A program made the position numbers and the translations under genes. A model generated the notes under the pieces. That model did not search any database and was not told where the DNA came from. It saw only the letters and a list, made by a program, of their open reading frames with translations. A DNA stretch of 64,000 nt from Aliikangiella coralliicola. GTDB taxonomy: Bacteria; Pseudomonadota; Gammaproteobacteria; Enterobacterales; Kangiellaceae. Location: the NCBI RefSeq assembly GCF_007004725.1, contig NZ_ML660170.1, positions 248,001-312,000 on the forward strand. Reading direction: 5' to 3'. Positions 42,501 through 59,735 of this stretch are shown here, piece by piece; position 1 is the first letter of the stretch, and each line of letters begins with the position of its first letter.

Positions 42501-42519
42501 AGGCACTTAATCAGTGCCT
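42501..42519. terminator. Hairpin between sdaA and the convergent kinase-like gene
   Basis: AGGCACT (42501-42507), loop TAATC, AGTGCCT (42513-42519): a perfect 7-base stem 14 bases after the sdaA stop. It overlaps the last codons of the minus-strand gene. T-runs are short on both sides, so terminator strength is uncertain. Confidence 0.45.
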
Positions 42520-43262
42520 AACTCCACTACCGGCATCTTTAATAAAAAGCCTTTGTCTTCCTGCCATTCGAATGTGCCTTTTATTTGAATGAGGAATCCC
42601 TTAATCATTGCCAAGCCAACATCTTTTTGTCCAAGCAGATTCCGACTGGAATAAAATGGCACAAAAAGGTTTTCCTGTTGTTCCTCGTCAAAACTAAGCT
42701 CAGTCGAATTCACAGTAATAATTAGCTCGTCATCCTGTCGCAAAACGCTCATTTCAATATCGCCACCATCAAAATTTTGAGTATCAGATTTATCTTGAGA
42801 AGAATGATGACTTGCGAGGTAATCACGACAGAAGCCGACCAGAGAAGTTAAACAGTGTTTAAACCATTCTGTCTCAGCATTAACAAAAAGCATCTTTTCA
42901 TCAATTTGAATATCAATAGGGCATTTAGATTCACTCGAAACAGATTTCAAAGTAGATAAAATTTCAACCGGGGAAATAACGACTTGCAGCCTGGAAATAG
43001 ATGATAATAACTCCTTGCCGAATATGACTGCTTTCTTCCCGGAGCTAAGCGCCATCTGAAGTCGCTCCTCAACTTCACTCTGCTCACATTCGAGTAACGC
43101 CAACTCATTAAAGCCCATCATACCTGACAGGAAATTATTATAGGCATGAACCATCAACCCGATGCTATCCTGATTTTGTTTTTGCTCGACTCCTTGCCTG
43201 TCCTTCAGCCGTTGCTGTTCATTTTGACTATTTTGTTGATACGCTTGTTTATCTCTACTCAT
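42507..43262 (-). CDS. Degenerate histidine-kinase-like protein
   Basis: A 251-residue soluble protein. A Gln-rich N terminus (about 1-30) is followed by a DHp-like helix VHAYNNFLSGMMGFNELAL. This matches the phospho-acceptor box of NtrB-type and hybrid kinases (VAHDFNNLL..I.G.AEL), with His about residue 39. The ATPase-like half keeps an F-box-like LFVPFYSSR and a G2-like VGLAMIKGFLIQIKG. It lacks the N-box Asn (LTSLVGFCRDYL) and the G1 DxGxG (STELSF). It probably does not bind ATP normally and may act as a phosphotransfer or scaffold protein. No receiver or sensor domain is present, and no regulator is adjacent. Confidence 0.75.
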   Translation of the reverse strand: MSRDKQAYQQNSQNEQQRLKDRQGVEQKQNQDSIGLMVHAYNNFLSGMMGFNELALLECEQSEVEERLQMALSSGKKAVIFGKELLSSISRLQVVISPVEILSTLKSVSSESKCPIDIQIDEKMLFVNAETEWFKHCLTSLVGFCRDYLASHHSSQDKSDTQNFDGGDIEMSVLRQDDELIITVNSTELSFDEEQQENLFVPFYSSRNLLGQKDVGLAMIKGFLIQIKGTFEWQEDKGFLLKMPVVELGTD

Positions 43263-43360
43263 CTATCAAATTTCCACAACCAAACTAGTAGTTAATTGAA
43301 TATCCGATCTTCTTTGAGTTTATACTCAAACAACTGAAAATCTTGCTGACGGCAACAGGC

Positions 43361-43409
43361 TTATACCCGTGCAACCTGAATCCTGAATTTCCAGATAGCA
43401 CGGGTATAA
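43361..43409. repeat. 12-base perfect inverted repeat
   Basis: TTATACCCGTGC (43361-43372) is the exact reverse complement of GCACGGGTATAA (43398-43409), with a 25-base spacer. It lies between the kinase-like gene's start and the Usp terminator. The long spacer argues against a simple terminator; it could be an operator pair or a remnant of a palindromic element. Confidence 0.55.
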
Positions 43410-43421
43410 TTATTAAGCAAT

Positions 43422-43453
43422 AAAAAAGCGGGAGATGCAACTCCCGCTTTTTT
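43422..43453. terminator. Strong bidirectional intrinsic terminator after usp
   Basis: AAAAAAGCGGGAG (43422-43434), loop ATGCAA, CTCCCGCTTTTTT (43441-43453): a 13-base stem with A/T tracts on both sides. It sits 22 bases after the usp stop on the minus strand. It is the best terminator in the window. Confidence 0.9.
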
Positions 43454-43474
43454 TACGAAAAACTAGTTCGATTT

Positions 43475-44350
43475 TTATTTAATCACGACAACGTCAGACG
43501 GTACTTTATGCAATACATTTTCAGCAGTATTACCTAACAGGCGCCCTCTTAAGCTTGTGCGAGTTTTATTACCCAAAATAACAACATCCGCATCAATGTT
43601 TTGACTAATTCGGCAAATTTCTTTTGCCGGCTTACCCGCAACCAGGTGCAATTTGCTACGATCAAGTCCTGCGTCTTCAACTAATCGACGAATCATCGGA
43701 TCTAACGAGGCTTTCATCTTATCTTCGTAAGTTTTCGGATCAATTAAGTCCAGGTCAGCCAAAGCTTTCGGCACTGCGATCGAATAGCACGCATGAACTT
43801 CACTGTTGGTTGCTCCGGCTAATTTAATCGCCTGGCGCATAATATCTTCGTTAAGATCGAGTGTTCTTTGGCTGGTTGAACCTAAATCTAGAGCTGCTAA
43901 TACTACACCCCCTTCTTTCCATGGTTTGTCGCCAACAATCATCACAGGCTCAGGACAGTGGCGCATTAATTGCCAATCAGATGGTGTATACATAAACGCT
44001 TCGGAGCGATGACCTGATTTAAATACCATATCGAACGATTTTTGATCACATCGTGCAATAACCCAACGCTCAAAAGATTTTTCCCAAACAACATCAACAT
44101 GGATTTTAACATCTCCCAAGTCGATACCTTCTAAAAAGGTATCCATTACCTCTTGTTTGCGGTCGATGTAGTTATGATGGACTTTGCGTTTTTCTTCATG
44201 AGATAGAATTTCAGAACTATCGACACCCGGCGCATGAACAAAACCGACAAACTCGATTTTCGCTCCCGTGTTTTTAGCTATTTCTAACGCATGATAAAAA
44301 GCTGACTGCTTTCCGCCTTCCTTATCTGCAATAACCAATAATTCTCTCAT
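43475..44350 (-). CDS. Tandem universal stress protein
   Basis: A 291-residue protein with two UspA domains (about 1-145 and 150-291). The ATG at 44350 (MRELLVIADKEGGKQ) is chosen because TTGGAG lies 7-8 bases upstream. The second domain has the ATP-binding pattern LHLVAGKPAKEICRISQ..VDVVILGNKTRTSLRGRLLGNTAENVLHKVPSDVVVIK, with the G2xG9G-like loop. The first domain's matching loop (VFKSGHRSEAFMYTPSDWQLM) is degenerate. The layout is like E. coli UspE. A single gene with its own terminator. A stress-survival role is known for the family; the trigger here is unknown. Confidence 0.92.
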   Translation of the reverse strand: MRELLVIADKEGGKQSAFYHALEIAKNTGAKIEFVGFVHAPGVDSSEILSHEEKRKVHHNYIDRKQEVMDTFLEGIDLGDVKIHVDVVWEKSFERWVIARCDQKSFDMVFKSGHRSEAFMYTPSDWQLMRHCPEPVMIVGDKPWKEGGVVLAALDLGSTSQRTLDLNEDIMRQAIKLAGATNSEVHACYSIAVPKALADLDLIDPKTYEDKMKASLDPMIRRLVEDAGLDRSKLHLVAGKPAKEICRISQNIDADVVILGNKTRTSLRGRLLGNTAENVLHKVPSDVVVIK

Positions 44351-44621
44351 TTCTATCTCCAAGCAAATTAACAATAAATTTTACTGCTACGTATTCTATC
44401 AACAAACATCGTTTAGGTCATAACAGAATTAATAATTTTGCCTTATATTTTAATAACATTGAGCACTATCTCAAATAATTATCTCGATCATCATTTGATT
44501 TAACCAATCGAGCGTAAAACTAACCAATATTGAGGATATGGTTTATACTGTGACCTGAGACAAGCGTTTTAGAACTGGCTCTGTAGTTTAAGGAATATTT
44601 CACCATTTTTGTCGAGGTAAT

Positions 44622-47123
44622 ATGGCGCAGTTGGCGGAAGCTAGACAATTATTATTAGTTAATTCAAATCCTGACCGTCTCAAAACATTAGAGGCTTTAT
44701 TAAAGAATGGAACCGATTTCGAGATTTTAACAGCTTCAAATGCAAAAGAGGCCGTCGAACTTCTTAAAGCAGAAATAATCCATTTTGTGGTCAGTAATAT
44801 TAAATTACCGGATTTTGACGGTTGGCGTTTAGCGCGCTTAGTCCGCTCCGGAGTGCTAAGATGTGCCGCAGATACCCCCTTCGTCATTGTCGCTAATACC
44901 TGGTGTCAACATATCGCCAGCACAACAGCGAGAGAATTTGGTATTAATCGACTGATTGCTTTTGAAGAAAACCCCAAACTCCTCGATATTATTAATGGCG
45001 ATCAGTTAACTCCCCTGGAAGACATGAAAAAAGCTTCTGTTCTGGTGATTGAGGACAATCAGGATACACGACATTTAGTGACCAGAATATTAAATCACCG
45101 TTTTCAAATTGAAGTTGCTGAAGATGGAGAGTCAGGATTGGAGAAATGGCGGCAGCGTAATTATTCACTTGTGCTTCTTGACGTAATGCTGCCGGGTATT
45201 TCCGGAAATCAGGTCTTGGGCGAAATTTTAAAAGAAACCCCCTCTCAATCTGTCGTTATAATGACCGCAAACCATACCATGGAGCTGGCCGAGGAATTGA
45301 TGCTCAAGGGCGCCGCTGATTTTGTCACAAAACCCTTTAGAGCGGAGCAACTCAGACGCGTCTGCGAAACGGCGGCACGCCGTGAAGATTTTATTATCAG
45401 TAATGAAGAATTTGCAGCGAAGGTAGACTCTCTTAACCGAAGCCGAAAAGAATACAAACGTATTTTTGAAGCCCATCAACATTTGCTCGATCAGTTAGGC
45501 AGTGTCGTTATCGAACTCAATACTAGCGGCCACATCTGTTTTCTAAATCGTGCCTGGGAAAAACTCACGGGATACGCCATACAGGAATGCCATCAACGCT
45601 CCCTGCTCGACTTTATGGTGAAACCAGATACACCGGGAGTCTACATTTCAAATGAGTTAGACACCGTTTTATCTGGTAATGTTACTTCTCACCGCTTTGA
45701 ATTCCGATTGAAAAATAAATTCAAAGAAGAGCTTTGGGTTGAGGCAAGATTTGAAATTACCCTTTCAAAAGATCACAAGTCTCGCAGTATTTCCGGCACC
45801 ATCGATAATGTAACTGCGCGCAAAAAAGCCCAAAGAGATCTTGAATACCTGGCCATGCATGACGGATTAACCGGGTTATTTAATCGCCACTATTTTGAAA
45901 CTGAACTCAGACAATTTACAGCCACCGCATCCCGTGGAAACGGCCCACATTCACTACTTTACATCGATCTTGATCATTTCAAGGTTATCAATGACACACT
46001 TGGCCACCATCACGGTGATATCGTATTAAGAAATATTTCATCGCTTGTTACCACCCGATTGAGAGAATCAGATATTCTTTCCAGAATCGGTGGCGACGAG
46101 TTCGCCCTGTTGCTACCTAACACCAATCAACAAACGGCACTCATGATCGCCGACGATATTTGTCGACTATTAGATGATTATCAATGTAGCCTCGAAGGAC
46201 AATCGTTTAAGGTTAACTGTTCGATTGGTATTTCTGAAATCAGCGGCGTCGAAGCCAGCGCCGAAGAATACATGAAACAGGCCGATATCGCGCTCTACGC
46301 GGCCAAAAAGCAAGGGCGAAATCTAGCCCACGTTTATGATAAAAATGACACTCATAGCAAAGCATTACAAGCCAGCTTAGAATGGGCGCGAAAACTACAC
46401 CAGGCAGTCGCAGACGATAATCTGGAACTTTATTTTCAGCCAGTTGTTGAAATTGCCAGTCGGCAGACGGTTTACCATGAAGCGCTGGTCAGACTGAAAA
46501 TAGAAAATCGAGTAGTATCACCTGGAGAATTTATTCCCGCGCTTGAACGCGAGGGCGACATGAATTTACTCGATCGCCAAGTGGTCAGTAAGGCGATCAA
46601 ATATTTACACGACTACCCTTCTCTCAACAAAATAGCCATTAATCTCTCCGCCCAAGGTTTCGGCGATGAGAGGCTGGTACCTTTGATAAAAGAAAAACTC
46701 AGACAACACCGAGTTGACGGTCGGCGTATCATCTTTGAACTCACTGAAAGTGCTAGTTTGAGCAACATTACTGCCACCAGACAAATTGTTTCAAAAATCA
46801 GAGAATTGGGCTGCGAGTTCTCCATCGATGACTTTGGTACCGGTTTTAGCACTTTCAATTATCTGAAACAACTTCCGGCCCAATCGGTAAAAATAGATGG
46901 CTCGTTTATTGTTGATTTAACGACCAATGCGGTCGACCTGGCCCTGGTTAAAGCTATTTATGAAGTCGCAACAGCGCTAGACAAAAAAACGGTCGCCGAA
47001 TTTGTCGAAAACGAGCAAACCCTCATTCTTTTGAAGAAGATAGGTGTGACTTATGCGCAAGGGTACCATTTGGGTAAACCGCTGCCAGTAGAAAAGCTAT
47101 TTGCTCAAAGTGCCGTTTGTTAG
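44622..47123 (+). CDS. REC-REC-PAS-GGDEF-EAL protein (c-di-GMP turnover)
   Basis: An 833-residue protein. REC1 (about 8-130) lacks the phospho-acceptor: VVSNIKLPDFDGW has Asn where Asp is expected. REC2 (about 140-260) is complete: VIEDNQDTRH, LLDVMLPGISG, MTANHT, FVTKPF. PAS spans about 285-400 (VVIELNTSGHICFLNRAWEKLTGY). GGDEF (about 410-570) has an intact GGDEF and an upstream RESD inhibitory site. EAL (about 590-825) keeps EALVRL, NLSAQGF, FELTES, IDDFGTG, KIDGSF and VAEFVEN, so both synthase and phosphodiesterase sites look active. Ribosome site GAGG precedes the ATG. It probably answers a partner kinase through REC2. Confidence 0.95.
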   Translation: MAQLAEARQLLLVNSNPDRLKTLEALLKNGTDFEILTASNAKEAVELLKAEIIHFVVSNIKLPDFDGWRLARLVRSGVLRCAADTPFVIVANTWCQHIASTTAREFGINRLIAFEENPKLLDIINGDQLTPLEDMKKASVLVIEDNQDTRHLVTRILNHRFQIEVAEDGESGLEKWRQRNYSLVLLDVMLPGISGNQVLGEILKETPSQSVVIMTANHTMELAEELMLKGAADFVTKPFRAEQLRRVCETAARREDFIISNEEFAAKVDSLNRSRKEYKRIFEAHQHLLDQLGSVVIELNTSGHICFLNRAWEKLTGYAIQECHQRSLLDFMVKPDTPGVYISNELDTVLSGNVTSHRFEFRLKNKFKEELWVEARFEITLSKDHKSRSISGTIDNVTARKKAQRDLEYLAMHDGLTGLFNRHYFETELRQFTATASRGNGPHSLLYIDLDHFKVINDTLGHHHGDIVLRNISSLVTTRLRESDILSRIGGDEFALLLPNTNQQTALMIADDICRLLDDYQCSLEGQSFKVNCSIGISEISGVEASAEEYMKQADIALYAAKKQGRNLAHVYDKNDTHSKALQASLEWARKLHQAVADDNLELYFQPVVEIASRQTVYHEALVRLKIENRVVSPGEFIPALEREGDMNLLDRQVVSKAIKYLHDYPSLNKIAINLSAQGFGDERLVPLIKEKLRQHRVDGRRIIFELTESASLSNITATRQIVSKIRELGCEFSIDDFGTGFSTFNYLKQLPAQSVKIDGSFIVDLTTNAVDLALVKAIYEVATALDKKTVAEFVENEQTLILLKKIGVTYAQGYHLGKPLPVEKLFAQSAVC

Positions 47124-47545
47124 TTATCAGCGTCGATGAAATGTGAAAATTCACAATATGATTTCAAGCTTGAATTCATGACGACCAAGGCCCCCCAAAG
47201 GCAATCAACGAGTGCAGTTTTAACATTCCGTTTTTTGCCAAAATGGCCAAAGACAACATCGCTTTCCTAATTTTTCACTAATAATTTCAGATCACTGCTA
47301 AATTTGCCCTTTTACAGTCCTTATAAATGCCGCAGTGCACTAGTGACGAGGGTTATTAATATTTTTTATTGACTCTTGAGATGACTAATACGGCCATTTT
47401 AGGTTATTTTAGGCTATCGCAATATTGAGATTGTTTGACAAAAAAATCTCTTCTGATTAATTTTTGTTCTAAGCTTATAACTCTGAGTGTTTTCTCGGCG
47501 CTTTGTTTTTGCAGTTACCAGACAATAAGATGTAAGAGGTATGGT
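47124..47545. other. Intergenic region before the ThDP/citrate-synthase-like operon
   Basis: No gene is seen. Near its left end is the palindrome-like TGTGAA-AA-TTCACA (47142-47155). The spacing (TGTGA-N4-TCACA) is two bases too short for a standard CRP site. TTTTAGG occurs twice around 47396-47413. The right end holds the operon promoter (47435-47463) and an approximately 75-base leader. Confidence 0.5.
47435..47463 (+). promoter_or_regulatory. Probable sigma70 promoter of the four-gene operon
   Basis: TTGACA (47435-47440) matches the -35 consensus fully. After exactly 17 bases TAATTT (47458-47463) matches three of six -10 positions. The element predicts a start of transcription near 47470, leaving about 75 bases to the ATG at 47546. 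It also explains why the upstream in-frame TTG, which is inside the -35 box, cannot be the real start codon. Confidence 0.55.
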
Positions 47546-49351
47546 ATGAATTTATCACTGATCGCCAACGACGACTCGAAACCTGAGGCTCAGATGCCCC
47601 ATCCTCAAGATAACGCAGATCTAATTATCGAATATCTGAAAACACTGGAAGTTGACTATGTATTTGGCGTACCTGGTGGTGCGATCGAACCGCTTTATAA
47701 TGCCCTGGCCCGAAGTCAAGCCGCGGGAGGCCCCAGAGCCATTATTGCGAGACATGAGGCAGGCGCGGCATTTATGGCAGAAGGCTATGCCAGGGAAACA
47801 GGTAAACTAGGCGTTTGTTGTGCAACCACAGGTCCGGGAGCAACTAACTTGCTCACCGGCACGGCTTCGGCTTTCGCAGATAATGTCCCCATGCTGGTTA
47901 TCACAGCGCAAACACCACTACCAAAATTTGGGAAAAATGCGCTGCAAGAGTCATCGTGTACCGCCATCGACACCGTCGGCATATTCCGCCATTGCACCCG
48001 GTATAATACACTCGTCTCCCATACCGAGCAGCTAAACAACAAAGTTATTAGCGCAATCATGTCGGCTAACCGAGTACCATCGGGACCATCTCATATTAGT
48101 ATTCCGTCTGATATTCTTCGGCAAAAACCTTCTGAAAATGTGAAGATTAAAGCCGAACGACTGAAACAAGAATTTACCTTAACGGACAATGCCGCGGTCG
48201 AACAGTTGACCGACATGCTCTCCAGCGCGTGGCGAGTCGCCCTGTTTTTAGGTAAAGGTTGCGGAAGCTCAATTGATGAAATCATGGAATTTGCCGAGCT
48301 GACCAGGGCACCGATTATGACCGGACCGGCCGGTAAACGCTGGATCAATGGGTTTCATCCCCTCTACCGCGGTGTCTATGGTTTTGCAGGACATCAAAGT
48401 GCCGAAGAAACCATGAAGGATGATACTATCGACCTGGTGTTGGCCGTCGGGACACAGATTACCGAGCTGGGAACCGGGGGTTGGCAATCATCATTACTAA
48501 GTGATCGACTTGTGCATATTGACTCAACCGTCGAGCATTTTTCCCGCTCCCCCATGGCGCAGCTGCACGTTTGCGGTGATTTGAAATCTATATTTCAACA
48601 GTTGAATGAAAATGTGAGGCTAGGAATAAAATGGGGTCGCACTTGGGATGCCGTTGATCCAGTTAAGCAAAACTATCTCGATCATCATATTCCAAGTACC
48701 AACCACGGCTACCAAATCCGTCAGAACGAGCCAGATAAGTGCTTTTCCAATGACATACCGCTTAAACCTCAGCGTATCGCCACAGAATTTAGTCGGCGTA
48801 TTCCATCTACTTTCAGAATTCACCTGGACGCCGGCAACGTCTGGTCGTGGTTCACTCACTATTTCCATCGCGCCAGTGCTAAAGGCCACTATCATATCGC
48901 GATGGGCCTGGGTTCTATGGGCTGGGCAATTGGCGCTTCGGTCGGTAACGCGTTAGGTAGCAACGAGCCGAGTGTTTGTATTACCGGCGATGGTAGTTAC
49001 TTAATGTCTGGTCAGGAAATCACAACCGCACTGCAACAAAAGTTACCGGTGATTTACGTGGTCTTCAATGACAGTGCCCTGGGAATGGTCATGCACGGCC
49101 AACGACTCGGTGGCGCCGAACAGATTGGATTTCAACTGCCGCCCATCAATTTCGCAAAAATGGCCGAAGCAATGGGCATTGAAGGTATCCGGGTGGAAAC
49201 CCCTGAAGATTTGGTCAATATTGACTGGAAAAGACTTGGTGAAAAACAAGGACCAACCATGATCGATTTGTTGGTTGACGGTGAGGAAATTCCACCCATG
49301 GGTCAAAGGGTCAAAGGGTTGGCCAATGAGTCAGCTACTCCGGGAGGCTAA
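47546..49351 (+). CDS. Acetolactate-synthase-like ThDP-dependent enzyme
   Basis: A 601-residue enzyme of the acetolactate synthase/pyruvate oxidase superfamily. The ATG at 47546 follows AAGAGGT; upstream in-frame codons lie in the promoter. The N-terminal PYR domain has VDYVFGVPGGAIEPLYNAL and the catalytic Glu in IARHEAGAAFMAEGYAR (E71). CATTGPGATNLLTG follows. The central domain is about 210-350. The C-terminal PP domain has GDGSYLMSGQEITTALQQ and VFNDSALGMVMHGQ, the Mg/ThDP motif. No small regulatory subunit (IlvN) is adjacent. It is followed by citrate-synthase-fold and asparagine-synthetase genes, so it is more likely a specialised decarboxylase/ligase than a branched-chain amino acid enzyme. 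Substrate unknown. Confidence 0.85.
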   Translation: MNLSLIANDDSKPEAQMPHPQDNADLIIEYLKTLEVDYVFGVPGGAIEPLYNALARSQAAGGPRAIIARHEAGAAFMAEGYARETGKLGVCCATTGPGATNLLTGTASAFADNVPMLVITAQTPLPKFGKNALQESSCTAIDTVGIFRHCTRYNTLVSHTEQLNNKVISAIMSANRVPSGPSHISIPSDILRQKPSENVKIKAERLKQEFTLTDNAAVEQLTDMLSSAWRVALFLGKGCGSSIDEIMEFAELTRAPIMTGPAGKRWINGFHPLYRGVYGFAGHQSAEETMKDDTIDLVLAVGTQITELGTGGWQSSLLSDRLVHIDSTVEHFSRSPMAQLHVCGDLKSIFQQLNENVRLGIKWGRTWDAVDPVKQNYLDHHIPSTNHGYQIRQNEPDKCFSNDIPLKPQRIATEFSRRIPSTFRIHLDAGNVWSWFTHYFHRASAKGHYHIAMGLGSMGWAIGASVGNALGSNEPSVCITGDGSYLMSGQEITTALQQKLPVIYVVFNDSALGMVMHGQRLGGAEQIGFQLPPINFAKMAEAMGIEGIRVETPEDLVNIDWKRLGEKQGPTMIDLLVDGEEIPPMGQRVKGLANESATPGG

Positions 49352-49359
49352 AATCTAAA

Positions 49360-50157
49360 GTGAGTAACAAAAAAAACTTTGGCTACGCAAAGAAAACCAG
49401 CACTAGCATCCTTTATGAAAAACCGAACGAAGACAACCCTTTTGTCGCCGAGTCAGTTTATATCCACGGGTATAACTTAACCGAGCTCACCAGTAAAAAG
49501 TCATTTGTAGAAGTGCTTATTTTACTTTTTACCGGAGAGTTGCCTAACGCAAATGCTATGGCATTGATGAACGCGCTCATGGTTGGATTAATAAACCCAG
49601 GACCAAGAAATCCAGCCGTGCGAGCCGCAATGACCGCCGGGATTAGTAAGTCAAACACGCCTCACCTGCTACCTATTGGCTTAATGGTATTAGGTGGTGA
49701 AGATGGCGGAGCCACCGAAGTAGAAAAATCCATGAGCTTTATTTTAGAAGCTTTTTCAAACAACAATCGATTCTATTCGTCATTTGACTTTGATAAGACA
49801 GACACTTCTGAGGGCGACTTTAAAATTGCGCCGGGATTCGGATCCTACTTTAGCCAAAGATGCCCAGTCACCCATCAAATCGCAGAACAACTGATCGCCT
49901 TTCCTGAAACCAAATATTTAAATTGGCTCCACTCTCAAATTATCGACAGCGAAAATAATAGTGCGGGATGGTTACCTGTTGGACTGGCTGCCGCTACTTT
50001 TCTGGATTTAGGGATCAAGCCAAGAGAAGGAATCGGACTTTATCAACTATTGTGTGCGCCGGGTATTGCGGCCCACGCACTTGAACAAACTCACAAGCCA
50101 CTATCATCAATGCCGTTCCTGGAAGATTCACAATATGAACTCAAGCAAAAAAGATAA
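49360..50157 (+). CDS. Citrate-synthase-fold protein 1, catalytic residues replaced
   Basis: A 265-residue citrate-synthase-like protein, shorter than true citrate synthases (about 370-430) but covering their core. Compared with E. coli GltA, AHGGANEA is represented by EDGGATEVEKSM (His to D115). GFGHRVYK becomes GFGSYFSQ (His to S162). No Asp stands in the NVDFYSG region (AGWLPVGLAAATF). All three residues of the citrate synthase triad are thus absent. The start is GTG, 8 bases after the ThDP gene stop; the GGGAGG before that stop may serve as ribosome site. It overlaps the next gene by 23 bases, so it is probably made together with it as a hetero-oligomer. Confidence 0.82.
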   Translation: MSNKKNFGYAKKTSTSILYEKPNEDNPFVAESVYIHGYNLTELTSKKSFVEVLILLFTGELPNANAMALMNALMVGLINPGPRNPAVRAAMTAGISKSNTPHLLPIGLMVLGGEDGGATEVEKSMSFILEAFSNNNRFYSSFDFDKTDTSEGDFKIAPGFGSYFSQRCPVTHQIAEQLIAFPETKYLNWLHSQIIDSENNSAGWLPVGLAAATFLDLGIKPREGIGLYQLLCAPGIAAHALEQTHKPLSSMPFLEDSQYELKQKR

Positions 50158-50962
50158 GAACTTATCTTTCTGGACAACCAGGCGAAATAAAATTTCGACA
50201 AGCGTTGGCAAGTGGACCGGTGGAGAAGACGTTATCTGCCACGGTCATTTGATGATGAAAGATTTATTGGGAAATATTTCCTACATGCAAATGCTGGTAC
50301 TGAATATTACCGGCCGCCTGGTAGATGAAAAAGTTGCCAAATGGCTAGAAGGTAATTTTATTGGTGTCAGCTACCCTGACGTCAGAATCTGGTGTAATAC
50401 AATTGGCGCACTGGCCGGTACAACAAAAACGTCGGTTGTCTCAGCGACGGTTGCAGGAACACTGGCGGCAGATTCTCGTGGTTACGGCGGCAGTCAAACC
50501 AGCGTTTACGGCATGAAGTTTATTCAAAATGCCCTCAAACAGAAACAATCTGGAATGACACTCGAACAAATTATTAAAAATGCAAATTACAAAAATGGAA
50601 AACCAGTAATTACCGGTTATGCCCGTCCGGTCGCAAGAAACGACGAAAGACTGGAACCCCATCAGCGAATGACTGAAAAATTAGGCTTCAGCGTGGGAGA
50701 ACACCTTAAACTCGCCTGGGAGATTAATGACTATCTTGAGCAACACCATGACCTGGCGATGAACGTCGCCGGTTATTCTTGTGCATTTCTTTCAGACCAG
50801 GGCTTTTCTCCGCAAGAAGTTTATCGAATTAAATCATTAATGGTTGCCAGCGGCGTCACGGCTTGTTACGTGGACTATTACGAAAGAACGAGTGGTAGTT
50901 TTTTACCACAACGTTGTGATGACATCGAATATGATGGTCACCCCATCAGAACAATAGATTAA
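50135..50962 (+). CDS. Citrate-synthase-fold protein 2, catalytic residues replaced
   Basis: A 275-residue paralogue of the preceding protein. The ATG at 50135 lies 8 bases after GGAAG, within the 3' end of the first gene; the longer frame upstream is only read-through of that gene. Matching positions of the citrate synthase triad are Y117 (SRGYGGSQTS for AHGGANEA), R164 (GYARPVARNDER for GFGHRVYKNYDPR) and A212 (NVAGYSC for NVDFYSG). The fold landmarks around each site are kept, which makes the replacements clear. It may bind a CoA thioester or a carboxylate without citrate chemistry, or use new residues. Partner of the first protein by gene overlap. Confidence 0.82.
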   Translation: MNSSKKDKNLSFWTTRRNKISTSVGKWTGGEDVICHGHLMMKDLLGNISYMQMLVLNITGRLVDEKVAKWLEGNFIGVSYPDVRIWCNTIGALAGTTKTSVVSATVAGTLAADSRGYGGSQTSVYGMKFIQNALKQKQSGMTLEQIIKNANYKNGKPVITGYARPVARNDERLEPHQRMTEKLGFSVGEHLKLAWEINDYLEQHHDLAMNVAGYSCAFLSDQGFSPQEVYRIKSLMVASGVTACYVDYYERTSGSFLPQRCDDIEYDGHPIRTID

Positions 50963-50995
50963 ATATTCGAACGCAATTAAGGTGTGGAGTGAAAT

Positions 50996-52903
50996 ATGTG
51001 TGGAATACTATCGGTATTTTCATCGGATTCTCCAATCGAAGAATCAGCCATCCAGAAAGGTCTAGATACTTTATACCACAGAGGCCCCGATCACAGCAGT
51101 TATTGGCTTTCGCCAGATAAACAAGTTGCGCTCGGTCACACCAGGTTAAGTATCATTGATTTGAGTACCGGCGATCAGCCGATTTCTAACGGCGACGATT
51201 CAACTCACCTGGTTGCAAATGGAGAGTTTTACGACTTCGAAAAAATCAGAAAAGATCTGCAGTCAAAAGGTTATCAATTCAAAACCAAATCAGACAGTGA
51301 AATCGCTCTTCACTTGTATCACGAACACGGTACCGCTTGTTTGCAACACCTGCGAGGCGAATTTGCATTTACTATCTGGGATCAAAACAACCAGACTTTA
51401 TTTGCCGCCAGAGATCGTTTAGGTATCAATCCCTTGTACTACGCGCACTACCAGGGAAAGCTATTTATTGGCTCCGAAATCAAAGCCATTCTCGCCGCCG
51501 GTGTTCCGGCGGTTTGGGATAAAGAATCTTATTTAAGACGAAGTTTTTATTTTACCGATAAAACATTGTTTAGCGGCATTAGTCAGGTACCCCCTGGGCA
51601 TTTTTTACTTGCTTCAAAAGGCAACTTTAAACTCGTTAAATATTGGGACTTTGGCTACGTCAGTGACCAACAGCTCGACCATAAAACAGAAGAAGAATTT
51701 GTTGAAAGTCTACGGGCAAGTTTGTTAGAAGCAACGCAAACTCGTCTGAGAGCAGATGTACCTGTGGGCGTTTACTTAAGCGGCGGTATTGACTCTTGCG
51801 CAGTGTTAGGAATGACTTCGCACCTCAGAGAAAACACCGTTGATGCCTTTACTCTTTCCTTTTCTAATAAAGACTACGATGAAGCATCTATTGCAACTCG
51901 TATGGCAGAGAAAGTGAAAGCAAAGCATCACATTATTTCAGTTTCTCAAGAAGATCTGGCGGACAACTTTTTAAAGTCTATCTGGCATAGTGAAACCATT
52001 TGCATGAATGCACACAGTGTCGCAAAGTTTATGTTGAGTCGTGCGGTTCACGATAAAGGATTTAAAGTCGTATTAACCGGCGAAGGCGCTGACGAAGTTT
52101 TTGCCGGCTATCCCCCTTTCCGCAGCGATATGCTTAATATGCTGGATGATAAAGCAAATTCAGAAAAATTACTCGATGAGTTAAAACAGAAAAATAAAAT
52201 TACCGCCGGACTAATGCTGGCAACAGAAAGTTCACAGTCCACCGAGTTCATCAATCGTTATTTGGGTTACGAACCTGCCTGGTTGATTCCGTTGGTTCAT
52301 ATATTTAACGAAATAAAAACCAATTTTAATTCAGAAACATCGCACGCGCTGGGAAAATCTCATCCGATCAAAAGTTTTTTGAACCAACTTGATTTTACTC
52401 AAATTAATAATATCAATCCTGTTCACACTTCAATGTATATGTTGTCAAAATCAGCATTGCCAAACTATGTACTTACCAACCTGGGCGATAGAATGGAAAT
52501 GGCACACTCTCTGGAAGGCCGACTCCCCTTCCTTGACCACAAAGTCATTGAGCAAGTGGTAAAAATGCCGGTGAACATGAAAATAAAAGGTATGCGGGAA
52601 AAGTATGTTTTGAGAGAAGCGATAAAGCCTTTTGTCACCGAAGAAGTTTATAACCGCCAAAAGCACCCTTTCCTGGCACCACCCTCAGTTATCACCCCGG
52701 GAGAAAAATTGCACCAACTCGTTCAGGATACTTTGCGAAGTGATTTGCTGAATAAAGTACCATTTTTTGATAATAAAAAAATTATTGAAATGCTCGACCA
52801 GGCGCCAAATCAACCCGAACAAAAATGGCCAAGCACCGAAGCGATATTACTCGAAATTCTCAGTTTATGTTTCATTCAACAGCACTTTGATTTATCAGCT
52901 TAG
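50996..52903 (+). CDS. asnB: Glutamine-dependent asparagine synthetase family protein
   Basis: A 635-residue class II glutamine amidotransferase fused to a PP-loop synthetase. The Ntn nucleophile is Cys 2 (MCGILSVFSS). Glutaminase landmarks are LYHRGPDHSS, GHTRLSIIDLSTGDQPI and VANGEFYDFEKI. The synthetase P-loop is VYLSGGIDSCAVLG (about 255-268), with VLTGEGADEVFAGYPPF and EGRLPFLDHKVIE. Ribosome site GTGGAG is 7 bases before the ATG. It is about 80 residues longer than E. coli AsnB and belongs to the type often found in biosynthetic clusters. It amidates an Asp-like or other carboxylate through an acyl-AMP. As the last gene of the operon it may act on the product of the preceding enzymes; ordinary asparagine synthesis is the alternative. 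Confidence 0.9.
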   Translation: MCGILSVFSSDSPIEESAIQKGLDTLYHRGPDHSSYWLSPDKQVALGHTRLSIIDLSTGDQPISNGDDSTHLVANGEFYDFEKIRKDLQSKGYQFKTKSDSEIALHLYHEHGTACLQHLRGEFAFTIWDQNNQTLFAARDRLGINPLYYAHYQGKLFIGSEIKAILAAGVPAVWDKESYLRRSFYFTDKTLFSGISQVPPGHFLLASKGNFKLVKYWDFGYVSDQQLDHKTEEEFVESLRASLLEATQTRLRADVPVGVYLSGGIDSCAVLGMTSHLRENTVDAFTLSFSNKDYDEASIATRMAEKVKAKHHIISVSQEDLADNFLKSIWHSETICMNAHSVAKFMLSRAVHDKGFKVVLTGEGADEVFAGYPPFRSDMLNMLDDKANSEKLLDELKQKNKITAGLMLATESSQSTEFINRYLGYEPAWLIPLVHIFNEIKTNFNSETSHALGKSHPIKSFLNQLDFTQINNINPVHTSMYMLSKSALPNYVLTNLGDRMEMAHSLEGRLPFLDHKVIEQVVKMPVNMKIKGMREKYVLREAIKPFVTEEVYNRQKHPFLAPPSVITPGEKLHQLVQDTLRSDLLNKVPFFDNKKIIEMLDQAPNQPEQKWPSTEAILLEILSLCFIQQHFDLSA

Positions 52904-52986: not shown

Positions 52987-55116
52987 TTAAAATACATAGG
53001 ATATTTCGGCAAAGAAATTACTGCCCGCTAACGGTAAATCAAAAGGAATGTTAGCGATGGGGCCACTGTTCGCTGTGGGTTCTCTGGCATCCTCATCGAA
53101 TAGATTACGAGCGATTAAGGCTAATGATAAATTGCTTTCAGGCGCTTGCCATCGGATAGTAACATCAACAATCTGATAGTCGTCAATCGCACTTCTTGTA
53201 TCTATCTGAGCTCTTTCTCTATCCATTACCCAATTAAACTTGGTGTTCATATGCCAGCTTTTTTCAAGTTGCCAGTCTGCCTGCAAAAACAATTGCTGCT
53301 GTGGCACAAAAGCGATGTCTTGTTTTGTCAATTCATCGGTTGAGCGCTGAATGGAATAGTTTCCTTTCAATTTGAAATGTTCTGTTGCTTCCCATTCAAA
53401 TTCGATTTCAACGCCATAACCTGTTTGTTCTCCGATGTTTTGTGCCGTATTGCTGGTAGCGCCTGTATCGGGAACGAATTGAATGATTTCGTTCCATTCA
53501 TGGTAAAAGAAACTCACACCACTGCTAAAACCCGTTTGTGGATGATAATCCATCACTAATTCAAAAGTTTCGATTCGCTCGGGAGATAAGTTAGGGTTAC
53601 CGAGCGCGACCGGATTATTAATATTACGCGTTTCTGCAAATGAAGGCGCTCTAAATGCTTTACCATATAAAAACTTTGTCGTTAAGTTCAACGAAGATGA
53701 CCAGACTAGCGCCAGCCTTGGGTTAGTGGTTGAACCAAAATCAGAATAATCATCGTAGCGAATGCCCGCGGTTAACTCCCAGTCATTGGCAAACGCCCAT
53801 ATATCTTGAACAAAAAAGTAATTATTCTTGCGATCACCTTCGGTAAGAAACACGAAAGGCGTATCAGAGACATCAACCACTGGACTACCTGGGACAAGAA
53901 ACTCGCCGTTTGGTCCAAACGCAAAGTTTTTAGACTCTTTGACTTTATACAAATCGCTATAATTGTGCCCGATGCCAATTCTTAATTCATGACTATCTAA
54001 CCCTTTATAGCTAGTCGTAAAGTTTAATCGACTGTGTTTTTCGAATACTTCAGGATTACCGATGACACCATCGGGAAACGGGGCTCCAAAACCAATATCA
54101 GCGCCGGGAGGAAAAATAATTAAGTTATTGTCAATTTCTTGTGTGGTATTTAGATGACTGAGTAAAGCTTCAATATTCCAATCTTTTGCCAGTTCATCAT
54201 TTTTATACGTAAGATCAATATTCCATCGATTACTGGATTGAACACTCGTCGGGTCCAGTGCTTCTGCAATCCCGACACCAGCTCCCAGTTCACGACTTTG
54301 CAACCCGCCTCTCAACTTCCATTTTTCAAATGCTAAATCTAACCTTAAATCGAGATTATCTCTTTTATTATTAACACTCCCCGGGGCTAGTGAAGCATTG
54401 GTACCAAAAACAGCATCCAATATTGTCTGTGCGTCACTTTGAATAATTTCATCGTGGCCATCGGTTTTATGAACTTCAACAATTAGTGACGTCGCAACAT
54501 TACCGAGTTTGCCGCCATGAGAAAACCAAAAATCAGTCGTATCATAGCTACCTGCTCGAAAACCGACAGTATTTTTTTCGATGTTTTCTGAAGTTTTCGT
54601 GATCACATTAATGACACCAGAAAAAGCATCGGCACCATAAATTGCCGAACCAGGTCCCCTGATGACTTCCACTCTCTCGATTGCATGAACAGGCATTCCG
54701 CCCCACAGTTGAGAGCGGTTACCAGTAAAAACATTAGTGACCGGAATCCCGTTAATGAGCATCAAAACTTGTGGGTTAAAGCTGCTATAAATGCCACGGA
54801 AAGTATAGATAGATAAATAAACATTGGGTAATTTCGATACATGTAAACCTGGCACCATCTCAAGTACATCGTCTAAATCCATAGCGCCGGTATTGACGAT
54901 TTCCTCCGCCGTAATTACCGTTGCCACTGATGGCGCTTTATGAATGAGCTTTTTAGAACCTGTCGCTAAAGAAATAAAATCTTCATCCCCGTAAAAATCT
55001 GCCAAATCATCTTCAAGCTCATCGAGTTCATCATACTCATCAGCTAAAATCGCAGCAGATCCCAATGATAAAGCAATTGCAATTGAGAGGCTGACTAGCT
55101 TGCGGGGAAACAACAT
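52987..55116 (-). CDS. TonB-dependent outer-membrane receptor
   Basis: A 709-residue receptor from the ATG at 55116, preceded by AAGGTGG; a TTG further upstream would spoil the signal peptide (LVSLSIAIALSLGSAAILA). The plug domain (about 45-165) has APSVATVITAEEIVNTGAMDLDDVLEMVPG and RVEVIRGPGSAIYGADAFSGVINVIT. The beta-barrel carries FRAPSFAETRN, PNLSPERIETFEL and the C-terminal ...FFAEISYVF ending in Phe. The mature N terminus is acidic (DEYDELDELEDDLADFY). It lies 101 bases after a sensor kinase and is the third gene of a binding protein-kinase-receptor set. Substrate unknown; no siderophore synthesis gene is clearly linked. Confidence 0.94.
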   Translation of the reverse strand: MLFPRKLVSLSIAIALSLGSAAILADEYDELDELEDDLADFYGDEDFISLATGSKKLIHKAPSVATVITAEEIVNTGAMDLDDVLEMVPGLHVSKLPNVYLSIYTFRGIYSSFNPQVLMLINGIPVTNVFTGNRSQLWGGMPVHAIERVEVIRGPGSAIYGADAFSGVINVITKTSENIEKNTVGFRAGSYDTTDFWFSHGGKLGNVATSLIVEVHKTDGHDEIIQSDAQTILDAVFGTNASLAPGSVNNKRDNLDLRLDLAFEKWKLRGGLQSRELGAGVGIAEALDPTSVQSSNRWNIDLTYKNDELAKDWNIEALLSHLNTTQEIDNNLIIFPPGADIGFGAPFPDGVIGNPEVFEKHSRLNFTTSYKGLDSHELRIGIGHNYSDLYKVKESKNFAFGPNGEFLVPGSPVVDVSDTPFVFLTEGDRKNNYFFVQDIWAFANDWELTAGIRYDDYSDFGSTTNPRLALVWSSSLNLTTKFLYGKAFRAPSFAETRNINNPVALGNPNLSPERIETFELVMDYHPQTGFSSGVSFFYHEWNEIIQFVPDTGATSNTAQNIGEQTGYGVEIEFEWEATEHFKLKGNYSIQRSTDELTKQDIAFVPQQQLFLQADWQLEKSWHMNTKFNWVMDRERAQIDTRSAIDDYQIVDVTIRWQAPESNLSLALIARNLFDEDAREPTANSGPIANIPFDLPLAGSNFFAEISYVF

Positions 55117-55217
55117 TGAAACCACCTTATGTTTTTGTTTATACGGGGACAACGCAATAAATTAGCTCATTGTTTTAACAACAGACCCTAAATAGTTTAG
55201 TCGAGAATACAGTTTTC

Positions 55218-56807
55218 TCAAGCTGAAGATAGGTCGACTCTTCTGGTTTCCTGTTCAGGTTGCAATGGCAGCTTAATTGAAAATCTGGTTCCCTCACCTT
55301 CCTGACTTTCAACTTCGATTTTTGCTCGCATCATGTCACAGAAATTTTTAGTAATCGCCATGCCCAATCCAGTCCCTTCAAACTTTCTTGTTTGGCTTCC
55401 GTCAACCTGAGTAAACTCTTCAAAAATGTAGTTTAACTTATCTTTTGGAATACCAACGCCGGTATCAGTCACAGAAACATAAAGAAAATTCTTGTCATTT
55501 CGAATTTCGAAGGTCACTTTGCCATTCTTGGTAAACTTACAGGCATTACTTAACAAGTTAAGAAATATCTGCATTAACTTTTGGCGATCAACAACCAAAG
55601 TACTATTGAGATTACCTTTATCAATCAGTAATTGATTGTTATTCGCGGCCGCCATCGGTTGCACTGTTTCAAGAGTGTCGTTGATTAAAAATTCCATATC
55701 GACCGGCTTCAGGTAGAGATCCATTCGACCCGCCTCGATCTTAGCAAGATCCAGAATATTGTTGATCAATCCTAACAGTGTATTTGCACTACGAATTGCC
55801 TTAGCCAAATCTTCAGCCTGCGCATCCATACACTCAAGCTCTAGATCTTCTTTAACCAAATCAGTGTAACCAATTATCGCCTGTAACGGCGTTCTTAACT
55901 CATGACTGATATTGGCTAAAAATTCTGATTTGTGGCGGTTGGCAGTGAGTGCGGTATCTCGCGCCACTCTGAGTTCCTGCGTTCTAATTTCAACTTCAGA
56001 CTCCAGGGTTGCTCGATGCATTTCCAGTTGAGACTTCTGTTTTTCCAGATGAGTCATCATTTGATTGTACACTGCTGCCATTTGACGAATTTCGCTGGCT
56101 CCGTTGACATCAGCCTTGGTGTAGTTTCCTGAATCTCTGGCAGTTTCCATTGTTTGTGACAGCGCTGATAAAGGCAGCGTTAGTCGATTGACTCCCCAGC
56201 TCATTAAAAACGCCAAAACAACGGTAATAACCCCACCAATAACGATATTGTTAACAAAAATTGATTGTTGAATTTCCCGCAAACTGTGCTTATCGTAATC
56301 CACGAGCACATGGCCAATGAGTTGTTCTTCGACGGTTTCTTCATCAGGATCTAATGTTTCCGGATCAAACTGCTCATCCACAAAAATAACCGGCGCACTA
56401 AATACCCAATGATCTTCATATTCATCGATTAACTGCGGCTCACCGGTTAACTTAGTAACGTCAAGATAAAACTGGCTATTGGGACTTTTAGTGGAACTAA
56501 TTAATAACTCACCATTAGGTTTAAATACTGCGACCCCGTTAATTGATTCAAATCCTAAAGTTCTGTTGACGGCTTCTTGTGCATTTTCTTCACTACCGGT
56601 TAACAAAGCAAGAATCGCCTGATCTGAGAAATTTCGAACGATTTGTAAACCATTTTCAATCGTTTCCAGGCGCACATTTCGGCTCGTTTGCCACGCAGTA
56701 ATAATTGAAGTTGTTAGCGAAAGAATAACCACGCTACCAATAAAAAAACTGAGTAGTTGACGTTTTAGTGTTGCCGACGATTTAAATGTGACGTATCCCA
56801 TAACCAT
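55218..56807 (-). CDS. Membrane sensor histidine kinase (CHASE8/HAMP type)
   Basis: A 529-residue inner-membrane kinase. It has a first helix (about 17-38), a periplasmic sensor region (about 40-185, NAQEAVNRTLGFESINGVAVF), a second helix (IVIGGVITVVLAFLMSWGVNRL) and a HAMP/coiled-coil linker. HisKA has phospho-His in HKSEFLANISHELRTPLQ. A full HATPase follows with N-box LNLLSNACKFT, G1 DTGVGIPKD, F-box FEEFTQVD and G2 GTGLGMAI. No receiver is fused and no response regulator gene is adjacent, so its partner is elsewhere. It is 8 bases after the binding-protein gene, which suggests that the binding protein delivers the signal. Confidence 0.92.
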   Translation of the reverse strand: MVMGYVTFKSSATLKRQLLSFFIGSVVILSLTTSIITAWQTSRNVRLETIENGLQIVRNFSDQAILALLTGSEENAQEAVNRTLGFESINGVAVFKPNGELLISSTKSPNSQFYLDVTKLTGEPQLIDEYEDHWVFSAPVIFVDEQFDPETLDPDEETVEEQLIGHVLVDYDKHSLREIQQSIFVNNIVIGGVITVVLAFLMSWGVNRLTLPLSALSQTMETARDSGNYTKADVNGASEIRQMAAVYNQMMTHLEKQKSQLEMHRATLESEVEIRTQELRVARDTALTANRHKSEFLANISHELRTPLQAIIGYTDLVKEDLELECMDAQAEDLAKAIRSANTLLGLINNILDLAKIEAGRMDLYLKPVDMEFLINDTLETVQPMAAANNNQLLIDKGNLNSTLVVDRQKLMQIFLNLLSNACKFTKNGKVTFEIRNDKNFLYVSVTDTGVGIPKDKLNYIFEEFTQVDGSQTRKFEGTGLGMAITKNFCDMMRAKIEVESQEGEGTRFSIKLPLQPEQETRRVDLSSA

Positions 56808-56815
56808 AACAGCAA

Positions 56816-57751
56816 TTACTCCGGAAACGTCATCTTGAAATTCTGTTGTTGCTCCGAGCTATACTTAAAGCCGAGGTGTGCGGCTGTCCTTAAATTAACG
56901 GCGAGTTGCAGAGAAGTAAGCGCGGCAAACTTTTTTTCAGTTGGCTTTTCCGCTAACTCCTGAACCATTGATGATAATTGTTTCCCAAGACCAAAATTGT
57001 CTGGGTAAGTAGAAAATAATGCCCCCCTTTTTGCATGAGAAGGTTTACTCGAAAAAACCACGACTTCTTTAGACCAGGCTTTCTCCAGAATAAATGGAAG
57101 TGTCACTTTATCGTGAGAAGAGATTTTATCAACAGGTAACCAGATGGCGTCCTGACTTGAAATGTCTGACTCAAACAAATTTTCATAAAACTTGACTGCT
57201 TCGGCCGTTTCGCTCACTTTTATAGAAACTAATTCCAGGTCTCGTGCGCTCGCCGCTGTTTTGGCTTTGTTAATTAGCCATTCACTTCTTTTGCTAAATG
57301 CAACATGAACCCTTCTAACTTCCGGTGCAACTAATTTCAAATAATCAAACAGGTTGGCCGGGTCAGAAATTAAACTGATACCAGAAACACCATTAGGTGA
57401 AATGGGTAATGCGCCTGAAACAACGCTAAATTCCTCAGGAAGTTTTTTAGCCAGCCTAAAACCGAGCCTGCCAAGGACAATTACTTTTTTAATACCGAGC
57501 TTACGTAATTCCTCGATAATTTGATTGCTATCAAAATCTCTTTTTATCAGGAATTCGTGAAATTCGAGGTGACTGTGACTTTTGCTACCTGAAATGATTT
57601 CCTGATAAATTGAACGATAGGGATTTTTGGCGTCAGGGTAAAATATTGCTATTTTATTGGTCACGGAAGCCGAATCCGAAGCCGCCGCAACACTGGGAAG
57701 GACTCCCATAATAAGCAATATAAAAATGTTAAAAGCTATCGACAATCGCAA
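56816..57751 (-). CDS. ABC-type periplasmic binding protein (PF04392-like)
   Basis: A 311-residue exported protein with a signal peptide (FNIFILLIMGVLPSVAAASD). Its fold resembles the TrpX/PF04392 binding-protein family: IAIFYPDAKNPYRSIYQEIISGSKSH, IKKVIVLGRLGFRLAKKLP, NGVSGISLISDPANLFDYLKLVAPEVRRVHVAFS and ALFSTYPDNFGLGKQLSSMV. No ABC permease or ATPase gene is adjacent. Together with the kinase and TonB receptor encoded downstream on the same strand it looks like a sensing rather than a transport protein. First gene of the trio, after a 432-base gap. Confidence 0.85.
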   Translation of the reverse strand: MRLSIAFNIFILLIMGVLPSVAAASDSASVTNKIAIFYPDAKNPYRSIYQEIISGSKSHSHLEFHEFLIKRDFDSNQIIEELRKLGIKKVIVLGRLGFRLAKKLPEEFSVVSGALPISPNGVSGISLISDPANLFDYLKLVAPEVRRVHVAFSKRSEWLINKAKTAASARDLELVSIKVSETAEAVKFYENLFESDISSQDAIWLPVDKISSHDKVTLPFILEKAWSKEVVVFSSKPSHAKRGALFSTYPDNFGLGKQLSSMVQELAEKPTEKKFAALTSLQLAVNLRTAAHLGFKYSSEQQQNFKMTFPE

Positions 57752-58972: not shown

Positions 58973-59036
58973 ATTGATGCCTCATTTATAATTTACGCAA
59001 TTTTTAAAACTACCGCCCATTACTGGAGAACCCACC

Positions 59037-59624: not shown

Positions 59625-59683
59625 TACACCGAATTAATTTTTAGTTAGCTTGATAAAATTCCATCAATTTAAATCCTTCCCGG

Positions 59684-59704
59684 CCCTCCTTTGCTAAAGG
59701 AGGG
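59684..59704. terminator. Perfect CCTCC/GGAGG palindrome between paaY and paaZ
   Basis: CCCTCCTTT (59684-59692), loop GCT, AAAGGAGGG (59696-59704): nine perfect pairs between two convergent genes. It is closely similar to the element at 14856-14877 (shared TCCTT..AAAGGGAGG core), also in a convergent gap. It probably works as a terminator and may belong to a dispersed palindromic family. Confidence 0.6.
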
Positions 59705-59735
59705 AGCTTTAACCCACGCACTTTGCACAGCGTTC

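Follow-up and report, generated by a model that had tools for sequence, protein, structure and literature searches.

The locus described here lies in a 64,000-nucleotide window of the Aliikangiella coralliicola genome (GCF_007004725.1, contig NZ_ML660170.1, 248,001-312,000, forward strand), and unlabelled positions are those of the window. Four consecutive open reading frames (ORFs) occupy its plus strand at 47435/47546-49351, 49360-50157, 50135-50962, and 50996-52903. The first two lie 8 bases apart, the second and third overlap by 23 bases, and 33 bases separate the third from the fourth, as a preliminary description of this sequence had stated. The first encodes a thiamine diphosphate (ThDP)-dependent carboligase/decarboxylase of the acetolactate-synthase/ScyA superfamily (47546..49351, plus strand), whose start we moved from TTG 47435. 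The second and third encode two proteins predicted to have the citryl-coenzyme A (CoA)-lyase fold, which are referred to as CS1 (49360..50157, plus strand) and CS2 (50135..50962, plus strand), with the ATG of CS2 lying within the overlap. The fourth encodes an AsnB-type glutamine-dependent amidotransferase (50996..52903, plus strand). The enzyme classes proposed earlier were borne out: TPP_enzyme N, M, and C domains in the first protein, two citrate-synthase-like proteins, and an asparagine synthase match of 277 bits in the last. Missing from the four-gene picture were the partners on both sides. Upstream lies the gene for a response regulator with two REC stretches followed by PAS, GGDEF, and EAL domains (44622..47123, plus strand), a frequent sensory partner. 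On the opposite strand are the genes for a TonB-dependent outer-membrane receptor (52987..55152), a membrane histidine kinase of HAMP-HisKA-HATPase architecture (55218..56807), and a periplasmic ATP-binding cassette (ABC)-type substrate-binding protein of family PF04392 with a weak TrpX match (56816..57751), which is a probable sensor input. The main object of interest is this larger locus, beyond the four genes, in which the CS1-CS2 block is exchanged between relatives.

The ThDP enzyme contains N, M, and C domains, the GDG..N cofactor motif, and an RHEAGAA stretch, and is 70-83% identical in five other loci of the same family. Its previously assigned start at TTG 47435 is probably wrong. ATG 47546 is favoured because a Shine-Dalgarno-like TAAGAGG precedes it and because the extra N-terminus is unconserved in five relatives. 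The "one strong -35 element" from which the genes were said to follow, TTGACA at 47435-47440, overlaps the supposed TTG start, and no partner -10 element passed the scan. No plus-strand promoter-like site was listed ahead of the ThDP gene and a complete promoter was not found there; the region has five promoter-like sites against a shuffle mean of 10.3. Alignment of the upstream DNA of the loci revealed no conserved element. The ThDP protein scores 306.9 bits with TIGR00118, the biosynthetic acetolactate synthase model (cut-off 538), and 265.9 and 256.0 bits with the ScyA and ScyA-related NCBIfam models (cut-offs 1000-1020), and so misses all three. Neither the ThDP protein (25 of 56 families listed) nor CS1 or CS2 reaches any of the curated NCBIfam cut-offs shown. 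The closest solved relatives, identified by their PDB molecule names, are BbmA (301 bits) and CsmA (274 bits), followed by acetolactate synthases (201 bits). Judged by its family, the enzyme is likely an acyloin synthase carboligating 2-oxo acids. The ThDP enzyme CybE joins two alpha-keto acids into an acyloin (PMC13288894). The window enzyme resembles the acyloin-forming enzymes ScyA and CybE and the solved relatives BbmA and CsmA at the superfamily level, but stays far below the ScyA cut-offs, and differs in being accompanied by CS1-CS2 and a receptor. Elsewhere, the genome encodes another ThDP enzyme from this wider family (G000:C7:534348-536204; larger piece 347 bits). No CS1- or CS2-type match was found in this genome outside the window locus.

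CS1 and CS2 narrowly miss the Pfam citrate synthase family PF00285 (23.6 and 24.0 bits against a cut-off of 27), and their best PRK06224 models score 76.2 against 212 and 72.1 against 245 bits. Their AlphaFold models each have a pLDDT of 93.2, and the best Foldseek match of both is the ATP-citrate lyase core 6hxp (E 2e-10 for CS1 and 2e-11 for CS2). An hhalign comparison links the two families with a probability of 99.2. Hence, the predicted structures uphold the citrate-synthase fold that had been proposed for both proteins. Citrate-synthase chemistry should not be assumed along with the fold, given that the catalytic residues are missing from CS2 and unconserved in CS1. We take His, His, and Asp to be the catalytic residues of citrate synthase. 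Their columns in CS2 were set by alignment with the genome's own citrate synthases, and CS1 was mapped through CS2; L039 and L076 were left out of the CS2 alignment, and L076 out of that of CS1. Among 64 CS2 sequences, the first His column holds Tyr in 58 and Phe in 6, the second holds Arg in all, and the Asp column is non-acidic, mostly with small residues and with no Asp or Glu there or beside it. The Arg of the DPR motif is kept in all 64 as DER. In the same sequences, S79, W86, N88, R164, P165, D170, E171, R172, and N210 are listed as invariant, and D82, R84, D221, Y266, and R272 are each found in 63 of the 64. In CS1, the catalytic columns contain His in 1 and 0 of 67 sequences, and the third contains no Asp and one Glu. 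Compared with the citryl-CoA lyase/citrate synthase represented by 6hxp, CS1 and CS2 share the fold, and CS2 retains the DPR Arg, whereas the window system has two diverged subunits, of which CS2 has lost the catalytic residues and gained new invariant ones. CS1 and CS2 would form a heterodimer with one remodelled active site, located on CS2.

We compared the locus with two sets of loci from other genomes. The ThDP-seeded set consists of the best 80 of 426 relatives obtained by scanning GTDB species genomes with the ThDP alignment; by record title, they belong chiefly to gamma- and betaproteobacteria and in a few cases to Desulfuromonadales. The CS2-seeded set, meant to counter the bias from the ThDP seed, consists of 40 loci read of the 49 given by strong CS2 matches (the window's own excluded), and has no locus in common with the first. 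ORFs were called mechanically and left open at contig ends, and some contigs stop near the seed gene. CS genes masked by longer overlapping ORFs were recovered by using all ORFs, which by profile gave both CS genes in 66 of the 80 loci. The ThDP-seeded loci contain TonB in 67, CS2 in 67, CS1 in 64, the kinase in 56, PF04392 in 50, a GGDEF/EAL-type gene in 50, and AsnB in 2 of the 80 cases. The corresponding numbers among the 40 CS2-seeded loci are CS1 36, ThDP 32, TonB 31, PF04392 25, kinase 24, GGDEF/EAL-type 22, and AsnB 2. The kinase and GGDEF/EAL labels denote best matches, not necessarily orthologues. Eight CS2-seeded loci have no adjacent ThDP gene. Five of these were searched genome-wide, and four have a ThDP gene elsewhere (G469, G598, G703, and G742); the search found none in G526. 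Hence, the core of the recurring set is the ThDP enzyme, CS1, CS2, and the TonB receptor, often joined by PF04392, the kinase, and a GGDEF-EAL-type gene. All five other same-family loci hold the REC-PAS-GGDEF-EAL, ThDP, CS1, CS2, and TonB genes; four also hold the histidine kinase and PF04392, and the fifth (L012) is an 8.3-kb contig. Strong CS2-type matches (E 3.9e-50 or better) occur in 42 of the 369 genomes of the class sample, the own genome counted, with weak matches (at most 70 bits) in 16 further ones. In the phylum sample, 10 of 398 genomes have strong CS2 matches, again with the own genome counted and with two already in the class set.

Gene order and orientation vary widely among the ThDP-seeded loci. 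In L222, TonB, CS1, CS2, ThDP, PF04392, and a hybrid kinase form one same-strand run with overlapping gene ends. Several other arrangements were observed. L084 (Pseudoalteromonas denitrificans) has the ThDP, TonB, kinase, PF04392, and GGDEF-EAL genes, and the CS pair was not found in this locus; its congener L075 has the pair. In L038, a ketosynthase-III-like gene (L038:11747-12721) follows the related ThDP gene at the usual place of the CS pair and may be an alternative block; a binding-protein gene lies nearby and the TonB gene is distant. L185 (11679-14636) and L186 (11503-14526) carry a YfiR/HmsC-like gene and a GGDEF gene beside CS1-CS2-TonB, with the ThDP gene elsewhere in the genome; DUF4154 was confirmed in the YfiR/HmsC-like gene of L185, and that of L186 is similar by eye. 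L009 (11176-15776) has two tandem TonB genes, 54 and 40% identical to the window's, perhaps for its own and a neighbour's product. Three adjacent TonB-like ORFs lie between ThDP and CS1 in L060 (6247-10638), two of which look like pieces of one gene.

The order of CS1 and CS2 does not vary. Wherever both genes were seen (102 loci), CS1 lies ahead of CS2 and on its strand, and in 98 of the 102 they overlap or lie at most 30 bases apart, as counted from mechanical ORF starts. The two also diverge together. Over 57 loci, from which the near-duplicates L076, L046, L063, and L039 and loci without a needed gene were left out, the partial correlation (r) of CS1 with CS2 given ThDP is 0.86, and that of CS2 with ThDP given CS1 is 0.11. 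The trees left out the same four loci, L027, and loci without a needed gene; those of ThDP and CS are quick trees with long-branch warnings. Nine loci from the same family, Pleionea, and Colwellia form one ThDP clade with an SH-like approximate likelihood ratio support of 100. Concatenated CS pairs reject this clade (approximately unbiased test, p 3.5e-5) and split its members over two deep CS types; the nine-locus group was picked by ThDP identity after the CS identities were known.

Comparison of close relatives locates the change. The Gallionellaceae metagenome-assembled genomes of L069 and L072 encode proteins that are 97% identical for ThDP, 96% for PF04392, and 99% for GGDEF-EAL, 38% for CS1 and 27% for CS2, and 75% for TonB. 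Up to the ThDP stop codon, the DNA of the two loci matches at 94% over 11.8 kb. Past that codon, there is one 95-column match (70%, E 8e-4), and similarity resumes inside the TonB gene at 85%. In the pair L052/L058, from strain-named records of Dechloromonas, the identities are 93% for ThDP, 49% for CS1, 51% for CS2, 74% for TonB, 88% for the kinase, and 91% for PF04392; one of the two has a gene for a short-chain dehydrogenase/reductase (SDR), and the DNA identity of 89% stops 7 bases before the end of the ThDP ORF. Likewise, the 73% DNA identity between the window and L009 ends at 49350, the end of the ThDP gene, and the next match lies only in TonB. The CS1-CS2 block is replaced whole at a fixed site between relatives. 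Fast evolution alone is hard to hold as the origin of the low CS identities, because L069 and L072 share one weak match between flanks of 94 and 85%, and because the CS pair of L067 and L072 (86 and 80%) is more alike than their ThDP enzymes (75%).

We then inspected whether the other genes follow the block or the ThDP enzyme, using 127 pairs of loci with a ThDP identity of at least 74%. CS2 and TonB identities correlate with a rho of 0.64, which is still 0.64 as a partial given ThDP (78 of the 127 pairs have both). The corresponding partials with CS2 are 0.19 for the kinase (58 pairs), 0.05 for PF04392 (67 pairs), and 0.06 for GGDEF-EAL (42 pairs). In the stricter set of at least 80% ThDP identity, TonB reaches 0.74 (33 pairs), compared with 0.31 for the kinase (22), 0.22 for PF04392 (29), and -0.21 for GGDEF-EAL (11). 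In close pairs, TonB divergence goes with CS2, and that of the kinase, PF04392, and GGDEF-EAL goes with ThDP. The receptors of L027 and L039, whose ThDP enzymes are 97% identical, are nearly identical in an N-terminal stretch and about 40-70% identical beyond it, and look as if the barrel had been exchanged.

The amidotransferase has a more restricted distribution. The window AsnB passes the cut-off of TIGR01536 (asn_synth_AEB; 459.1 against 267.1 bits) and keeps the MCGIL motif with Cys2 and the SGGIDS PP-loop, in accordance with glutamine-dependent asparagine synthase-like amidotransferases. It differs from asparagine synthases in belonging to a separate subfamily encoded next to CS2 in four genomes, namely those of the window, L049, L187, and L188, with L054 being the other half of the L188 gene (G742). 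The three full-length locus AsnB proteins are 53-61% identical to one another, the G742 pieces are 58-66% identical to the window's, and the other AsnB paralogues of the window genome are at most 37% identical to the locus AsnB. AsnB matches at E 1e-130 or better were found in five of the 369 class genomes: the own genome, G535, G742, G630, and G731. Those of G535 and G742 are linked to the locus, and that of G731 (39%) is unlinked. G630 encodes a 44-45% AsnB relative beside a TonB-like gene on a short contig (L228:1971-5868), and has no ThDP relative at E 1e-100. We rejected AsnB as a core gene because it is missing from 78 of the 80 ThDP-seeded and 38 of the 40 CS2-seeded loci, some of which are cut by contig ends; it is also absent from all five other same-family loci. 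Tracking of AsnB as such by the TonB type was rejected too: of the 80 loci, L049 has the receptor most similar to the window's (58%), but L187 also has AsnB and its receptor is only 38% identical. An SDR gene is present anywhere in the locus in 22 of the 80 and 6 of the 40 loci; 17 and 3 of them (20 of 120) have one no more than 400 bases from a core gene, and in L039 the SDR is fused to CS2. The pattern of AsnB and SDR fits alternative tailoring of one product family.

With close to even confidence, we favour the reading that the locus makes and senses a self-made small molecule by means of a constant and a variable module. On our best reading, this would be an acyloin-type metabolite, shaped by CS1-CS2, amidated in this strain by AsnB, and recognised by the receptor. 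The constant module would comprise the ThDP enzyme together with the PF04392 protein, the histidine kinase, and the REC-PAS-GGDEF-EAL protein. To the variable module would belong the CS1-CS2 block, the TonB receptor, and, optionally, a tailoring enzyme, which is AsnB in the window and an SDR in other loci. Judging by its family, the ThDP enzyme would first couple two 2-oxo acids into an acyloin. The CS1-CS2 heterodimer, with its active site on CS2, may then condense or rearrange the acyloin by a chemistry other than that of citrate synthase. In the window strain, AsnB, again by family, would amidate a carboxylate. The TonB receptor would finally recognise the product, and the PF04392 protein, the kinase, and the GGDEF-EAL protein would relay this into a phosphorelay or cyclic di-GMP (c-di-GMP) response.

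Several observations weigh against this reading. TonB is missing in 9 of the 40 CS2-seeded loci, the CS genes are missing in some loci (e.g., L084, L038, and L057), and support from AsnB is limited to four genomes. In the 45 largest clusters of ORFs from the 80 loci, no conserved exporter was recognised from the first residues. The CS genes of L052 and L058 retain several short DNA matches of 72-76%, and divergence and replacement are therefore less clearly separable in this pair. In CS1, a His lies one column from the aligned catalytic positions in 12 and 20 of 67 sequences, in an alignment of doubtful register, so that a catalytic role may stand for some CS1 proteins. Over all 57 loci, TonB has partials of 0.21 and 0.17 with ThDP, against 0.15 with CS2 and 0.27 with CS1. 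Over 46 loci, the TonB-kinase partial given ThDP is 0.36, which fits ill with a clean split into two modules. In a clade of six loci (15 pairs) in which TonB lies away from the CS genes, TonB correlates with ThDP at 0.84, with PF04392 at 0.89, and with CS2 at 0.80; TonB there tracks ThDP and PF04392 as well as it does CS2, and hitch-hiking of neighbours or co-transfer is possible. The compared pairs share loci and are not independent.

A rival account, which we consider rather unlikely, is uptake and breakdown: a compound from the environment would enter through the TonB receptor and be sensed by the kinase and the PF04392 protein, ThDP, CS1-CS2, and SDR or AsnB would degrade or modify it, and the variable module would follow the food source. 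Uptake is a common role of TonB receptors and binding proteins, and the co-variation of TonB and CS in close pairs fits this account too. Just past the locus, at 58184-61784, lie phenylacetate degradation genes for PaaG, a PaaY-like protein, and PaaZ, of which PaaG and PaaZ are above cut-off. These genes, the kinase-TonB correlation, and the His columns of CS1 shift the balance slightly from a self-made molecule towards uptake and breakdown. PaaG is found at the same place in L010, and the phenylacetate neighbours may be there by mere synteny, may point to aromatic 2-oxo acids, or may speak for a breakdown role. Genes for 2-oxo acid dehydrogenase subunits follow them in the window. Breakdown is opposed by the gene content: the 45 largest clusters of ORFs from the 80 loci, judged by first residues only, yielded no recognisable permease, CoA ligase, or hydrolase set that many loci share; one cluster is an ABC-ATPase present in 10 loci and another a LysR gene present in 14. 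AsnB spends ATP to build, and the window PF04392 gene is accompanied by a kinase, with no permease or ATPase among the ORFs after it.

That the enzymes make a hydroxy- or oxo-carboxylate chelator, which the TonB receptor retrieves, with cassette exchange giving private chelators, we judge unlikely. Exchangeable synthesis-receptor pairs are typical of siderophores, and the window receptor has its best solved and curated relatives among receptors for siderophores/colicins, haem, and B12, although none of these matches comes near its cut-off. Against a metallophore, the Fur-box-like scores upstream of TonB (99 sites), ThDP (112), the histidine kinase (69), and PF04392 (71) differ little from shuffle scores, in a scan without a positive control. 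Scores of at least 13 slightly exceed the shuffles, most for CS1 (12 of 99 against 6.0 expected; likewise without a positive control), and the scan speaks only weakly against this account. No conserved siderophore exporter or inner-membrane transporter was recognised among the 45 largest clusters, and the surrounding genes encode a kinase and c-di-GMP proteins.

It is very improbable that the four genes form a closed pathway in which AsnB is a core enzyme, no receptor takes part, and a single amidated metabolite is the product. This was the view of the preliminary description, which was right that the genes belong together; its closed pathway did not hold up, since the recurring set is larger and AsnB is not core. 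Its expectation that the genes would be found together elsewhere was confirmed by the order CS1-CS2-AsnB with the ThDP gene adjoining in UBA3532 (L049) and G535 (L187), and G742 has the same four genes split across two contigs (L188; L054/L230). The separateness of the AsnB subfamily from the genome's own paralogues also favours this view, but AsnB is absent from nearly all loci, and TonB, kinase, and binding-protein genes are far commoner neighbours. Ordinary central metabolism, in which a spare acetolactate synthase and citrate-synthase paralogues adjoin by chance, has the superfamily names in its favour and is scarcely credible: the curated cut-offs shown are missed, the CS2 catalytic residues are gone, and the wide recurrence of the gene association in effect refutes it. 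The earlier comparison with phosphonate clusters, which combine ThDP decarboxylase, citrate-synthase-like, and AsnB-like enzymes, fails, and a phosphonate pathway was rejected, because no phosphoenolpyruvate (PEP) mutase is above cut-off in the whole genome. The enzyme names are alike superficially; the best PEP mutase match (113.5 against 319.55 bits) is probably PrpB, as it adjoins a second citrate-synthase-family gene. On the upstream side of the locus, a Usp gene with a kinase-like gene beside it by eye (42507-44374) is kept in three same-family loci at 79-89% identity. Usp matches occur in 2 of the 80 loci, and this gene is probably plain synteny.

The making and sensing of a self-made molecule can be compared with polymorphic synthesis-receptor systems such as the pyoverdine/FpvA types and the agr pheromone groups. 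In these systems, as in the window locus and its relatives, synthesis genes are exchanged as a block at one site, and the receptor diverges along with them, here in close pairs of loci. The enzymes, receptor type, and sensory chain are unrelated, and the function of the window locus is putative. We found no description of this locus in a literature search that mostly did not reach subscription journals. More doubtful, though possible, is the extension to a widespread proteobacterial communication class, in which a constant ThDP-derived acyloin scaffold would be turned into strain-specific signals by exchangeable, catalytically remodelled CS heterodimers and AsnB or SDR, to be read by matched TonB receptors and a kinase/c-di-GMP relay. 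Given the frequency of CS2-type proteins in the class sample, the locus is common, and many bacteria from water and soil share it. It would provide a protein of citrate-synthase fold whose active site is remodelled and whose partner has diverged, as well as a case in which two fixed genes flank a synthesis block that is replaced. It would also offer a concrete lead on strain-specific signalling or chelation in strains that include Aliikangiella marina, Cellvibrio mixtus, Dechloromonas hankyongensis, and Methylomonas koyamae.

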